Assembly: GCF_010671595.1 (NCBI RefSeq)
Contig: NZ_JAABOP010000002.1
Span: 1 to 64,000 of the forward strand
Reading direction: 5' to 3'
Source: Muriicola jejuensis
GTDB lineage: Bacteria; Bacteroidota; Bacteroidia; Flavobacteriales; Flavobacteriaceae
DNA: 64,000 nucleotides
In this document: piece by piece, positions 1 to 6,200 of the stretch
How positions within the stretch are numbered: position 1 is the first letter of the stretch
How the letters are laid out: each line of letters starts with the position of its first letter
Made by a program: the position numbers and the translations under genes
The notes under the pieces: generated by a model
Databases searched by the model: none
The model's input: only the letters and a program-made list of their open reading frames with translations
Told to the model about the DNA's origin: nothing

Positions 1-111
1 AGGCCTGAAGCAGAGCCCAGGCTCGCTTCAGGATCCCTTCCTGGTAGCCGCTCACACATCGCCACGGCTCGTGTTCACGGACAGTCAGGGATAGGTCGCC
101 GCCTTTTTTAA
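1..111 (+). repeat. Structured 111-nt repeat unit, copy 1 (possible small RNA or 5S-derived element)
   Basis: Identical to the unit at 168-278 and starting at the first base of the window, so further copies may lie to the left. On the plus strand it can fold: CCTGAAGC (4-11) pairs with GCTTCAGG (25-32), with GAGC/GCTC (13-16/21-24) stacked inside; TCCCT (34-38) can pair with AGGGA (87-91), enclosing AGCCG (46-50)/CGGCT (65-69); AGGC (1-4) can partly close with GCCT (101-104). The last bases (GGTCGCCGCC then T-run) look like the 3' end of Bacteroidota 5S rRNA, but the body lacks the 5S core, so a normal 5S call is not supported. An intrinsic terminator follows immediately. Function unknown. 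Confidence 0.6.
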
Positions 112-144
112 AAGCACTCATAGCAATATGGGTGCTTTTTTTTT
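111..144 (+). terminator. Intrinsic terminator after repeat unit 1
   Basis: AAAGCAC-t-CATA, loop GCAA (a GNRA tetraloop), TATG-g-GTGCTTT, followed by a run of T to 144. It sits directly at the 3' end of the 111-nt unit and has the same skeleton as the terminator at 280-311. Confidence 0.8.
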
Positions 145-167
145 GCTATACAATGAATCAGGCACCA

Positions 168-278
168 AGGCCTGAAGCAGAGCCCAGGCTCGCTTCAGGA
201 TCCCTTCCTGGTAGCCGCTCACACATCGCCACGGCTCGTGTTCACGGACAGTCAGGGATAGGTCGCCGCCTTTTTTAA
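168..278 (+). repeat. Structured 111-nt repeat unit, copy 2
   Basis: Exact second copy of 1-111, with a period of 167 bp. The spacer (about 145-167) shows no match to the Bacteroidota promoter consensus, so both units may be processed from one longer transcript entering from the left, possibly an rRNA operon. The same stem set is predicted as for copy 1. Confidence 0.6.
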
Positions 279-279
279 G

Positions 280-311
280 AGTCCCTCACAGCAATGTGGG
301 GGACTTTTTTT
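280..311 (+). terminator. Intrinsic terminator after repeat unit 2
   Basis: AGTCCC-t-CACA, loop GCAA, TGTG-g-GGGACT, then a T-run. Same layout and loop as the terminator at 111-144 but with stem pairs changed on both arms, so the hairpin is kept while its sequence differs. Confidence 0.8.
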
Positions 312-365
312 ATGGCCTGACCTTAACGACCATAGCCTCAAAACTCAGGGTTCTTATCCTACCTT

Positions 366-442
366 ACCCCCAGGGGACTAACGTCCTTCTTCCCCCTTGA
401 GAACAAAATAATCCGTAATACCGAAAGAAGAAAGCAGGAAAG
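366..442. repeat. Intergenic ~77-nt repeat, copy 1
   Basis: Begins with CCCCCAGGGG and contains a small hairpin (GGAC taac GTCC, 375-386) and a pyrimidine tract. Closely matched by 510-586 (period 144 bp), diverging towards its 3' end. It lies downstream of the minus-strand lipoprotein gene; no coding capacity is convincing. Function unknown. Confidence 0.6.
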
Positions 443-509
443 GTTTTGGCTGACGCAGTAGCAACCCTAACTCGAAGTAAGCCTTAACAGGAGGTCCCAA
501 CCTATTCGT

Positions 510-586
510 TCCCCCAGGGGACTAACGTCCTTCTTCCCCCTTGAAGACAAAATAATCCGCAATACGGAAATAGAAAAGCGGGGAAG
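510..586. repeat. Intergenic ~77-nt repeat, copy 2
   Basis: Second copy of the 366-442 element; the first ~35 bases are identical, including the GGAC/GTCC hairpin (519-530), with scattered differences after that. A reverse-strand open frame crosses it but has no recognisable protein features. Confidence 0.6.
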
Positions 587-652
587 ATACATTGAGAGAG
601 AACCCTACATACAATACTGTCCGTTTTCGCTATCGAATAAATTCCTCGAATT

Positions 653-1606
653 TTATTCAGACACCTCAAATACTTTAAACATCCCTTTATCTTCGCTATT
701 GGGAACTTCAGAAATGAAGGCGTACTTTCCGGGCTTGATTTCGGCTTCAAAATACAAAGTGCTCCCTCCGGGAGCGTCATTCGTTCCCCCTAAAAAAGTG
801 ACACCCTCCGGAACAGGGGTCATCAAACCATCCGGTGTTGCCCAGTTCATCCATGCTTCTAATCTTACCAGATCTGCACCTTCCTCCAGCCGAACGAGAT
901 TGACATCGTGTCCCACAAAATTTTCGTGTACTATTTGATCCATATAATCCACGGAGAACAATTGCTTTCCGGCCTTTATCTCACCCTTAACGGATATTCC
1001 ATCAGTGCTGGATATGGACACCTGCACTGCAGGAATCGGTGGTTGGCTTTCACCTGCTAAATCCTGTACAACCAGTTCTTTGGTCATCCCCATAGAGGAA
1101 TGGAACCTTCCATCGGCCATCTTAACGTAGCATTCCATAATATAATATCCCGGAGGGAGGTTCACAATGGTTGTGCCAACAGTACCTGGAGATACCAGTC
1201 CGGTTCCCCCGGAAAACACGATCTCGGAAAACCAGGGAGGCAATTTACCAAAAGCCTGCATGGCAGCATCCATATCCCCTTTCATAATGAGTGACATTCC
1301 TTCGTCAAAAGGAGGCAGGACTTCTTTTTTCATATCTTCTATATTCTTTCCCTCAGGGTACTTGTCAAATAAAATAAAATGGGGTTCTGTAGACTTGTTG
1401 ATGTACCTGAAGGTATTCCATCCTGAGGATATAGTGTCTACGGTAATAAAATCCATAACCCGAGTTACGACCTCTATGGTGGAATCCTTGGCAACCTGAT
1501 CCATAACATCACTTACCGCTTTTTTAGAGTCCGGTTTACAACCTACCCAGGAGATTGTGAAAACAAATACTAAGCAGATCCGACAATAAAATTTAAAGAA
1601 GTTCAT
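653..1606 (-). CDS. Lipoprotein with two cupredoxin-like repeats, function unknown
   Basis: A 317-residue exported protein. The start at 1606 is preferred over an upstream ATG because it places a hydrophobic signal segment at the N-terminus, ending in a lipobox-like WVGC (Cys23). The mature protein appears to be two related halves (about 45-182 and 198-317), each ending in a PGxY strand followed by a G/M-rich strand, a pattern seen in cupredoxin folds. The first half carries His76, Cys159, His169 and Met172/Met174, a set that could form a type-1 copper-like site; the second half lacks the Cys. Family not recognised; the cupredoxin reading is inference from pattern only. It stands alone, leftwards, with gltD behind it. 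Confidence 0.75.
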   Translation of the reverse strand: MNFFKFYCRICLVFVFTISWVGCKPDSKKAVSDVMDQVAKDSTIEVVTRVMDFITVDTISSGWNTFRYINKSTEPHFILFDKYPEGKNIEDMKKEVLPPFDEGMSLIMKGDMDAAMQAFGKLPPWFSEIVFSGGTGLVSPGTVGTTIVNLPPGYYIMECYVKMADGRFHSSMGMTKELVVQDLAGESQPPIPAVQVSISSTDGISVKGEIKAGKQLFSVDYMDQIVHENFVGHDVNLVRLEEGADLVRLEAWMNWATPDGLMTPVPEGVTFLGGTNDAPGGSTLYFEAEIKPGKYAFISEVPNSEDKGMFKVFEVSE

Positions 1607-1742
1607 AATTGTTGGTTTTAGGTTGATTTTCAATATTAAATTTGATAAAGATCAAGCATTAGAAAATTAATAAAAATATTTTATTGTATGAATCCGGGTT
1701 GAATGCTAGATGTTTACAGAGCTATTGATTTATTAAATAAAA

Positions 1743-1763
1743 AAAGCCGCAATCTGCGGCTTT
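1743..1763 (-). terminator. Terminator downstream of gltBD
   Basis: Inverted repeat AAAGCCGC aatct GCGGCTTT just past the gltD stop, with A/T runs on both sides, so it could also work for the opposite strand. Confidence 0.8.
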
Positions 1764-1782
1764 ATACAAAGGCAATAGAATT

Positions 1783-3249
1783 TCATACTCTGGGTAGATC
1801 CCCTTCTCCCTTTAAAGGAAGGGAAGACTTGCCCATCAGATAAGTATCAACGTGATAGGCGGCTTGCCTTCCTTCAGATATGGCCCATACGATGAGGGAT
1901 TGCCCCCTTCTCTGGTCACCGGCAGCGAAGACCCCCGGCACATTGGTCTTGTAGTCCTTAACCGAGGCTTTGATATTGGTACGTCCATCGGCTTCTATAC
2001 CCAATTGCTCGGCCAGGGTCATTTCGGAACCCGTAAAGCCCAGGGCCAGGAGTGCCAGGTCACAGGGCCACTCTTTTTCTGTTCCCTCTATTTCTTTCAA
2101 TATAGGGCGTTCCCCTGGTTTGTTTATCCACTCCACTTCTGAAGTAATCAGGGCTTTGAGATTTCCTTCACCATCTCCGATAAACTTCTTTGTGGAAATA
2201 CTAAAAACTCGTTCGGCTCCCTCTTTGTGAGAGGAACTGGTCCTTAACCTCATAGGCCAGAAGGGCCATGGCTGATCCTGAGGCCTCTCTTCTGTGGGCT
2301 TACTGAGAATCTCGAAATTAGTCACCGACTTGGCACCCTGCCTAAAGGAGGTGCCTATACAATCCGAGCCGGTATCACCCCCACCGATCACGATCACGTG
2401 TTTGTCCGTTGCTTTAATCTCCTTCTCAAATTTCTTCTTTCCATCTACCCTCCTGTTGTTTTGAGCAAGGAAGTCCATGGCCTGAACGACTCCCTTCAAA
2501 TCAGCGCCTTCAATGGGTAAACTCCTTCTTACCGTTGCCCCTCCGCATAAGACCAGAGCATCGTAGTCCTTCTTTAGCTTTGTTGCCGGTAAATCAACCC
2601 CCACGTGAATCCCACATTTAAAGACGATCCCTTCCTCTTCCAGTACTTTCAACCGCCTGTCTATAATTTGTTTTTCCATCTTGAAATCCGGGATTCCGTA
2701 TCGCATTAGCCCTCCTGGTTTCTCATCCCTTTCATAGACGGTGACCCAATGTCCTGCCCTGTTCAGCTGCTGGGCAGCGGCTAACCCCGCCGGGCCTGAA
2801 CCTATGACGGCTACCTTCTTGCCTGTCCTGTTTTCAGGTGGCGCAGCAACTACCCATCCTTTCTTAAAAGCAGTTTCCGCTATATTTTTCTCTATGTTTT
2901 CAATGGATACCGGGTCCTCATTGATCCCGAGAACACAGGCTTCCTCGCAAGGGGCAGGACAAAGCCTGCCTGTGAATTCCGGAAAGTTGTTGGTGGCGTG
3001 TAAAATAGTCGCTGCCTTTTCCCATTTACCTCGATATACCGCATCGTTGAAATCCGGAATGAGATTTCCCAAAGGGCACCCGCTGTGACAAAAAGGAATA
3101 CCGCAATCCATACAGCGCGCTCCCTGTTCCTTAAGTTCGTTTTCCTTCAGGGGTACCGTGAATTCCTTAAAATTTGATATGCGTTTTTCTACCGGTTTGT
3201 ACGGTTCCGTCTTCCTTTTGTATTCTAAAAATCCCGTGATCTTTCCCAT
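1783..3249 (-). CDS. gltD: Glutamate synthase small (beta) subunit
   Basis: 488 residues, full length for the family. GltD passes electrons from NAD(P)H through FAD to the large subunit, which makes glutamate from glutamine and 2-oxoglutarate in the cytoplasm. The N-terminal region has cysteine clusters for 4Fe-4S binding (Cys46, 49, 54, 58 and Cys97, 101, 105). An FAD-binding motif GSGPAGL follows near residue 150, an NAD(P)H-binding motif GGGDTGSD in the middle, and the C-terminal FAD motif AAGDQRRGQS. It lies 9 bp downstream of gltB, so the two are co-transcribed from the promoter at 7783-7790, with a terminator directly after the stop. Confidence 0.97.
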   Translation of the reverse strand: MGKITGFLEYKRKTEPYKPVEKRISNFKEFTVPLKENELKEQGARCMDCGIPFCHSGCPLGNLIPDFNDAVYRGKWEKAATILHATNNFPEFTGRLCPAPCEEACVLGINEDPVSIENIEKNIAETAFKKGWVVAAPPENRTGKKVAVIGSGPAGLAAAQQLNRAGHWVTVYERDEKPGGLMRYGIPDFKMEKQIIDRRLKVLEEEGIVFKCGIHVGVDLPATKLKKDYDALVLCGGATVRRSLPIEGADLKGVVQAMDFLAQNNRRVDGKKKFEKEIKATDKHVIVIGGGDTGSDCIGTSFRQGAKSVTNFEILSKPTEERPQDQPWPFWPMRLRTSSSHKEGAERVFSISTKKFIGDGEGNLKALITSEVEWINKPGERPILKEIEGTEKEWPCDLALLALGFTGSEMTLAEQLGIEADGRTNIKASVKDYKTNVPGVFAAGDQRRGQSLIVWAISEGRQAAYHVDTYLMGKSSLPLKGEGDLPRV

Positions 3250-3258
3250 ATTTCCTTC

Positions 3259-6200
3259 CTAGGTGATTTGTAATTTCTCTTCCTCCAACCGCAATAAGGC
3301 CTGCCTGTATTCCTCCGGGAACACCTTTATGAACTTAGGCAGGTAATGATCCCAATTCTCTAGGATCCTTTGGGCAAGCGGACTAAAAGTGGCATTGTAG
3401 TGATTCTCGATCAGCATCTTTAACTCCTTTACATCCTTGTCTTCTTCTACGGCCAGCAGATTCAGGGCTTCTTTGTTGCAGCGCTTGTCAAAGGTCTTGT
3501 TTTCATCCAGCACATAGGCAATTCCTCCACTCATCCCAGCTCCGAAGTTCCTTCCAACTTCCCCGAGGATGACAGCAATTCCTCCGGTCATGTACTCACA
3601 CCCATGATCTCCGATACCTTCCACAACCGCCGTAGCTCCCGAATTGCGAACGCAGAATCGTTCGCCAGCCTTGCCGTTGATATAGGCCTCGCCTGAGGTC
3701 GCCCCATAAAGCGTGACATTGCCCGTAATGATGTTTTCTTCCGGTTTCAAGGTCGATTTTTCAGGGATCTTGATGACCAGTTTTGCCCCTGATAGACCTT
3801 TACCCAGGTAATCATTCGTGTTACCATTGACGACCATGGTAAGTCCTCTGGTCGCAAAAGCCCCAAAACTCTGACCCGCTGATCCCGTAAAATTGAGTTT
3901 CAGTGTATTGTCCGGCAGTCCTTCTGCTCCGTAGATCTTGGAGATCTCATTGCTCAGAATGGCTCCAATAGCCCGGTTCGTATTGTGGATAGGGAAATCC
4001 AGGCTGGTCTTTTCCTTCCTGAACAGGGCTGGATGAGCTTGTGATATGATGTCGAATTCGATAGATTCCTTCACCAAATGCTCCTGTTTCGTTGTATTGT
4101 ACAGCTTGGTTCCTTTGGGAACATCGATGGTATGGAGGATGGGAGTGAGATCCAGGCCATTCGCTTTATAGTGATCGATAGCCTTGTTTCTGTTGAGCTT
4201 ATGAACTTGCCCTACCATCTCGTTGAGTGTCCTGAAGCCTAATTTGGCCATGATCTCTCTCAATTCCTGAGCAACGAAATACATATAATTTACTACGTGT
4301 TCCGGTTTGCCTTCGAACTTTTTTCGCAATTCCGGATTTTGGGTGGCAATGCCTACAGGGCATGTATTCAGGTGGCAAACCCGCATCATAATACATCCTG
4401 AGGCGACCAGGGGTGCGGTTGCGAAGCCAAATTCCTCGGCTCCCAGAAGACAGGCTACTGCTACGTCCCTGCCGGTTTTGAGCTGCCCGTCACATTCCAG
4501 TACGACACGGTTTCTAAGGTCGTTCATGACCAGTGTTTGCTGTGCCTCGGCTATCCCCAGTTCCCATGGCAGACCTGCGTGTTTAAGGGAAGTCAGGGGA
4601 GAGGCTCCTGTTCCTCCGTCGAAGCCCGAAATAAGGATCACATCTGCCTTGGCCTTGGCAACCCCGGCCGCTACGGTGCCCACTCCCACTTCGGACACCA
4701 GTTTGACGTTGATCCTGGCTTTACGGTTGGCCGCCTTTAAGTCGTAGATCAACTGGGAAAGGTCTTCTATGGAATAGATATCGTGATGGGGTGGGGGAGA
4801 GATGAGCCCTACATAAGGCGTGGAATTTCGTGTTTTGGCAATGGACGGATTCACTTTAGGTCCCGGCAATTGCCCCCCTTCTCCGGGTTTGGCGCCCTGG
4901 GCCATTTTGATCTGTATCTCCTGGGCATTGGTGAGGTAGTTGGAGGTCACCCCGAACCGACCTGATGCCACCTGTTTGATGGCACTGTTTTTCCAGTCGC
5001 CTGTCTGATTTTTGTAAAAACGTTCCGCGTCTTCACCACCTTCACCCGAATTGCTTTTCCCGCCAATGCGGTTCATAGCGATCGCCAGGTTTTCATGCGC
5101 TTCCTTACTTATGGAACCGTAAGACATCGCTCCGGTTTTGAAGCGTTTGACAATATTCGTCCAGGGTTCTACCTCCTCCAATGGGATGGGATCAAAATTG
5201 GTGAATTCGAACAGCCCCCTGATTGTCATCAGGTCTTTGGATTGCTCATTGACGATCTCTGCAAATTCCTTATAAGTCTCCGGTTCATTGTTGCGGACCG
5301 ATTTCTGGAGCTTGGCGATCGACAGGGGGTTGAACATGTGCTTCTCCCCGTCTCGCCTCCACCGGTATTCCCCCCCGATCTCCAGGTCGAGATTGGCCGC
5401 TACATGGGTAGGGGCAAAGGCCTTTTTGTGCCTTTTTGCGATCTCTTTCTCGATCTGGTACAGCCCGATCCCCTGTATCCTTGTCGGGGTATTGGGAAAA
5501 TATTTTTCAACGACCTTGGTGTTCAGTCCAATACATTCGAACAACTGTGAGCCCCTATAGGAATTCAGGGTAGAGATGCCGATCTTGTTCATCACCTTTA
5601 CGATCCCTTTTCCAATGGCCTTATTGTAATTTTTGATAGCCTCATCAAAGGTGTATTCGGTAATATCGTTCTCTTCGATCTGCTCTCCTATAATCTCGTT
5701 TACGAGATAGGGGTTGATGGCACTTGCTCCGAAACCAAAGAGAAGAGCAAAATGGTGCACCTCCCGGGGTTCAGCAGATTCTATGATGATACTCAGCTTA
5801 GACCTTTTCCCGAGCCGCTGCAGACCACTGTTAACATAGGAGCACGCCAGCAGGGCAGGAATGGGCGCTTTATGCCTACTGACAAGCCTGTCTGACAGGA
5901 TGATAATATTAGCCCCTTCATCGATGGATTTGGAGGCCTGGGCCAGGACAGAATCCAAAGCCTCTTCCAGGCCATTGTGCCCGCGATCCACCTCGTAGAG
6001 GATGGGAATGGACACCACCTTGTAATTCGGGCTTGCATCGTAATTCTTGATCTTGTCCAGGTCTTCCTTGGAGATCACGGGATTCTGAATCTTAAGTTTA
6101 CGGCAGTGTAATTCGGTGATCTTGAAGATATTTTGGTCAGTACCCAGAGTGAGGCTGATGTCTGTAATGAGTTCCTCCCTAATCCCGTCGAGAGGAGGGT

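Follow-up and report, generated by a model that had tools for sequence, protein, structure and literature searches.

Tandem units at a contig start of Muriicola jejuensis as probable rRNA-operon-tail copies of a family of structured repeats in Flavobacteriaceae

The stretch of DNA analysed here (the window) comprises the first 64,000 nucleotides of a Muriicola jejuensis contig (NZ_JAABOP010000002.1, here C18) and opens, on the forward strand, with two tandem structured units. In a self-comparison of the window, unit 1 (1–111) and unit 2 (168–278) are exact copies of one another with a start-to-start distance of 167 bp, the match extending to 114 nt at 99% identity. This comparison and the predicted fold bear out the initial annotation, which had described two exact 111-nt tandem copies with a 167-bp period and a terminator behind each; the bulged 12-bp hairpin that it had placed at the 5′ side of the unit was found at 4–32, with one bulged A at position 12 (P1). 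Next comes a rod, the 5′ arm of which (33–43) consists of P2 (ATCCCT, 33–38), an unpaired TC (39–40) and P2b (CTG, 41–43). It is capped by a variable hairpin, P3 (48–80; CCG..CGG and ACAC..GTGT), with its apex where relatives carry TGCGcTTCGCTT, and is closed by a 3′ arm (82–92) made up of CAG, an unpaired TC (85–86) and AGGGAT (87–92). The following 18 nt (92–109, TAGGTCGCCGCCTTTTTT) are identical to the 3′ end of 5S rRNA in congener G002 and include the first T run, and the intrinsic terminator of unit 1 (110–145) is homologous to the 5S/rrn terminator of the same congener. The inter-unit spacer (146–167) resembles the spacer between 5S terminator and unit in G002 and on a second M. jejuensis contig, C19. 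In unit 2, the conserved rod from P2 to P3 (200–259) is the same as 33–92, and the terminator (277–312) has a stem whose two arms both differ from those in unit 1, with pairing retained.

Both terminators are on the forward strand; the first (110–139 plus T run) was picked up by a terminator scan, and the second (277–306 plus T run) is visible in the fold. The full units fold better than 200 of 200 shuffles (z = −4.6 and −5.1), with much of this signal supplied by the terminator, the 111-nt part alone reaching z = −2.0. A scan for sigma-70-type promoters, a search scope that leaves flavobacterial promoter types outside it, returned no promoter-like site on the forward strand. The initial annotation had noted that the unit opens on the first base of the window and had suggested further copies to the left. 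The window starts exactly on the unit because contig C18 itself starts there, and the extra copies were found on C19, which opens with 30 nt followed by two more copies (G000:C19:31-141, one mismatch; G000:C19:198-308, identical). A covariance-model search counted four copies in the M. jejuensis genome, all of the type found at rRNA operon (rrn) tails; no dispersed copies were found there, even with a permissive model search.

Neither 5S nor 23S rRNA is detectable in the M. jejuensis assembly, so the rRNA operons probably fall into assembly gaps. In congener G002, which has a complete chromosome, the 5S gene of a 16S–tRNAIle–tRNAAla–23S–5S operon is immediately followed by a decayed copy with 81% identity, and diverged copies of the unit also lie behind 5S in congeners G003, G005 and G007. 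Behind the G003 operon comes sequence similar to the end of the gltD-like gene of the window; since both adjoin the end of such a gene, the rrn tails of G003 and of the window are probably orthologous. In congener G006, the 5S terminator is present and the unit is absent behind 5S. Because of the 5S-adjacent placement in relatives, C18 and C19 most likely begin just behind two rRNA operons that are missing from the assembly, and their starts would thus represent the downstream flanks of these operons. A second short repeat, CCCCCgGGGGACnnACGTCCTTnTTCCCCC and then AAAATAAT..AAAGCAGG, occurs immediately downstream of the rrn tails in this genus (window 367–442 and 511–586; L005 394–440 and 9455–9537; also L013 and L014), including the congener that lacks the unit (L020 of G006, about 336–365 and 502–535).

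The covariance-model search placed the element behind 5S in about eight genera, with carriers beyond this genus that include Hyunsoonleella jejuensis, Jejuia pallidilutea, a Dokdonia metagenome-assembled genome (MAG) and genomes G062, G305, G180 and G253; four head-to-tail copies follow 5S in G244 and three in G404. With strict filters, it was not detected in most family genomes searched. These copies follow one plan: P1 leads into GATTAATTCCTG ... CAGTCATTGAATAG, behind which come a duplicate of the 5S tail of the respective host and, in most cases, a terminator. Around the element of the Dokdonia MAG, this tail and about 75 nt of terminator region are found on either side, with few differences between the two. 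One further copy, in G316 (L046, 1501–1564), lies within the 16S–23S spacer, in reverse orientation to the rRNA.

Alignment against the G002 5S region separates the flanks of the unit from its core. Bases 98–144 match the 5S tail and terminator with a score of 75 (shuffled maximum 30), and P1 matches the pre-5S leader hairpin (TGAAG..AGAGCCCAGGCTC..CTTCA) with a score of 35 (shuffled maximum 27), whereas the core (32–90) scores 13 against 5S, which amounts to no resemblance (shuffled mean 13.4). The Rfam 5S model, RF00001, gave no match in window 1–5000 at E values up to 1, and no family in Rfam 15 matches the element, so that the core is neither plain rRNA nor a known Rfam family, as the initial annotation had proposed to check. 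Judged by these alignments, the unit is a composite, in which 92–145 duplicate the 3′ end of 5S with its terminator and 33–92 form a structured element other than 5S. It is very improbable that the unit arose by tandem duplication of 5S rRNA and decay of the extra copy to a pseudogene. Such an origin would agree with the position right behind 5S and with the leader hairpin, 3′ tail and terminator, all of which match the G002 5S unit, but it is opposed by a core that is no closer to 5S than shuffles, that receives no score from the Rfam 5S model and that aligns, with covariation, to elements of other genera and to dispersed repeats. On the absent 5S similarity and the elements in other genera, we rejected a decayed 5S pseudogene for the core; it holds for the flanks alone.

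The element itself spans about 60–90 nt and consists of hairpin P1 followed by a rod of 5–6 bp, a UC/UC loop, 3–4 bp and the variable hairpin. Eight seed sequences yield this same rod of P2, unpaired UC/UC loop, P2b and variable P3, with P2 reading ATCCCT/AGGGAT in the window and ATTACT/AGTAAT in G005 and G003, and P2b reading CTG/CAG in the window and CCG/CGG in G244. In the window, the energy of the rod fold is no more than 0.5 kcal/mol above the RNA minimum, and with DNA parameters the rod belongs to the minimum-energy structure itself. An alignment of 33 copies, which leans towards the rod structure because it was fitted to it, has 93% standard pairs among its pair cells and contains 173 double changes, where shuffles gave 54.6 ± 6.2 and slid controls never exceeded 41; the unpaired UC/UC and apical nucleotides are conserved. 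An alignment-free test used 34 distinct dispersed copies picked by their 5′ pattern alone. The closing motif TCA[CT][TG]AA occurs downstream in 22 of these (control, 9 of 204 windows), and the P2b triplets are complementary in 20 of the 22 (shuffled mean 8.5, maximum 16 in 2,000). The stems are thus kept by paired mutations while the sequence changes, and the covariation is strong. The covariance model and the search of flavobacterial genomes suggested at the outset therefore did find related sequences with covarying stems. As for the undescribed RNA element that had been proposed, it is indeed structured, outside Rfam and endowed with covarying relatives, but it is not free-standing, its last 20 nt and terminator being copied from 5S; with a terminator that duplicates that of the rrn operon, the unit is unproven as an independent small RNA gene. 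Keyword and sequence-string searches gave no description of the element in the papers they covered.

The model, although trained almost wholly on rrn-tail copies, also matches elements located elsewhere in Jejuia, Hyunsoonleella and other genera. The exact pattern CCCGC-N3-14-GCGGGATTARTTC is present in 16 of 201 family genomes, with no occurrence of a reversed-pattern control, and a search at permissive settings gave matches in 7 of 39 relatives. These dispersed copies are situated in gaps between open reading frames; they point either way relative to the genes and occur alone or in arrays. An array in G110 (L078, 1500–2130) comprises at least 8 copies with an exact 78-bp period and the closing arm TCACTAA only in the last copy, and in G148 (L079 and L094) two copies end about 15 nt before the ATG of a rightward open reading frame and have a common upstream flank, ATCGGGACTGAACCCAATAA. 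Across 398 genomes of the order, a single weak tandem match was obtained outside Flavobacteriaceae, in G452; it lacks the usual core and was not counted. Pattern matches outside the family in the genome collection do not fit the model and were taken as chance, and carriage by viruses was rejected, since viral contigs gave no match to the dispersed-type pattern.

Dispersed copies pair almost exclusively in Watson-Crick fashion, with no G-T and 4 A-C among 276 pairs, and this absence of G-T suggests that they were shaped at the DNA level. The rrn-tail copies contain 18 G-T and 7 A-C among 346 pairs, with 7 of the 18 G-T in one column, and this excess is a mild RNA-like sign. The existence of dispersed relatives speaks for a mobile-type DNA repeat no less than for an RNA gene. 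One dispersed copy, found at an orthologous place in two genera (L074 and L082), has a rewritten P3 that is still paired; this looks like kept function and counts against a mobile repeat, as does the lack of dispersed copies in the M. jejuensis genome.

The main rival explanation is that the rrn tail holds a functional structured RNA, either a small RNA or a processing or termination element, which would be transcribed by read-through from the rrn operon, processed out and ended by the copied terminator. We regard this as possible, at the level of a minority view. The strong covariation and conserved unpaired UC/UC and apical nucleotides, the presence in rrn tails of about eight genera, the 18:7 ratio of G-T over A-C in rrn-tail copies and the terminator stems that change with pairing retained are all in keeping with it, yet the structural evidence fits both readings. 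Against an RNA function stand the patchy distribution (under the strict filters, and including G006), the decay of the copy in G002, the location of the unit behind the 5S terminator, the result of the sigma-70-type promoter scan, for all that flavobacterial types fell outside it, and the occurrence of relatives as repeats dispersed in both orientations. Of the two readings, the mobile repeat is favoured over the rrn-tail RNA by the patchy occurrence and by the dispersed copies.

Could the repeat be moved by a resident transposase? REPs associated with RAYTs are described in two papers (PMC3733652 and PMC6006769) as carrying a GTAG/GGAG or CGTC tetranucleotide at one end, and PMC6006769 reports, for subclass 2.6 of the Bacteroidetes RAYTs, 'atypical secondary structures'. 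That the element is a REP of a resident RAYT (TnpA-REP), possibly one of these subclass 2.6 structures, with which it can be compared by description only, appears unlikely to us. The element is dispersed, palindromic, intergenic and found in tandem clusters, and Y1 genes occur in 11 of 14 genomes examined; but the element model found no match at 20 Y1 (RAYT-like) transposase loci, several inspected loci carry other palindromes, and no Y1 gene was found in G110, G133 or G002, of which G110 and G133 carry arrays. No conserved GTAG/GGAG or CGTC tetranucleotide is present in the 33-sequence alignment. A RAYT route is thus not supported by the Y1 loci, by the palindromes found there or by the carriers in which no Y1 gene was found. 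The flanks of Y1 genes in G021 and G353 (L112 and L117) hold palindromes such as GACCTCACAGGTTTTTGAAACCTGTGAGGTC, likely REPs of their own. M. jejuensis has one RAYT-like gene (L110, G000:C11:628701-628928; 196-aa frame with NHVH and YIHKNP), and the element is not nearby.

We consider it probable, on balance, that both units belong, as copies at the rrn tail, to a REP/MITE-like family of structured repeats in Flavobacteriaceae and were duplicated and homogenised together with that tail. This reading builds on the 5S-adjacent position in relatives, the fusion to a copy of the 5S end and terminator, the tandem duplication, the covarying stems and the dispersed relatives. The family would have spread as DNA, as a non-autonomous REP/MITE-like element of which the folded single strand is recognised by an enzyme. 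In the lineage of the window, a copy would have come to sit with the 5S terminator on one side and a duplicate of the 5S tail on the other, and recombination among these repeated tails and terminators may then have duplicated the 167-bp unit and may still keep the copies at both rrn tails alike. Such duplication and homogenisation across operons would account for exact units beside variable terminators. The initial annotation had suggested either very recent duplication or gene conversion/selection on the RNA as the source of the exact identity; duplication together with homogenisation, both inside single rrn tails and from one tail to another, fits it best. At the RNA level, the element would be reached by transcription reading through the 5S terminator, each unit copy adding one further terminator. 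More speculatively, and with no greater conviction than we grant to a functional RNA, the element could represent a new class of structured element, characterized by the UC/UC loop and the TGCGcTTCGCTT apical loop, that moves by some single-strand mechanism, has captured the 3′ end of 5S on repeated occasions and, at rrn tails, has become domesticated as an RNA or terminator cassette.

The family lies outside Rfam; structured dispersed repeats as such are of a known kind, and it is the residence at the rrn tail that is unusual. The tail of an rRNA operon is a constrained place, and an element found there in several genera together with a copy of the host's 5S end would show a route for mobile-type repeats into rrn operons. 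Because draft assemblies break at rrn operons, arrays at rrn tails are usually concealed at contig ends, which is of relevance for annotation.

Several known systems share parts of this architecture. Bases 92–145 of the unit correspond to the end of a 5S rRNA gene and the rrn terminator, and P1 resembles the pre-5S leader hairpin, whereas the core (33–91) is unrelated to 5S by sequence. Like REP/BIME sequences with their RAYTs, the copies in relatives are short palindromic repeats, dispersed between genes and single or in tandem clusters; in contrast to these, the element is about 60–90 nt long, with two hairpins, a conserved internal loop and no GTAG/CGTC end, and has no copy near the RAYT genes tested. 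Integron attC sites fold into a rod that is interrupted by an internal loop and ends in a variable hairpin, and carry invariant RYYYAAC/GTTRRRY boxes. The element has such a rod, loop and variable terminal hairpin, but lacks invariant AAC/GTT triplets; the equivalent pairs covary, being AAC/GTT, GAC/GTC, AGC/GCT and AAT/ATT in dispersed copies and CTG/CAG and CCG/CGG in rrn-tail copies, and with boxes that are not invariant an attC identity was rejected. MITEs of the IS200/IS605 kind have two hairpins and no gene, and their ends are recognised and cut by the TnpA of a parent element. Although no parent element or cleavage sites were identified for the present element, a comparison limited to proximity to Y1 genes, it resembles these MITEs in its two hairpins, its lack of a gene and, in dispersed copies, its apparent structure at the DNA level.
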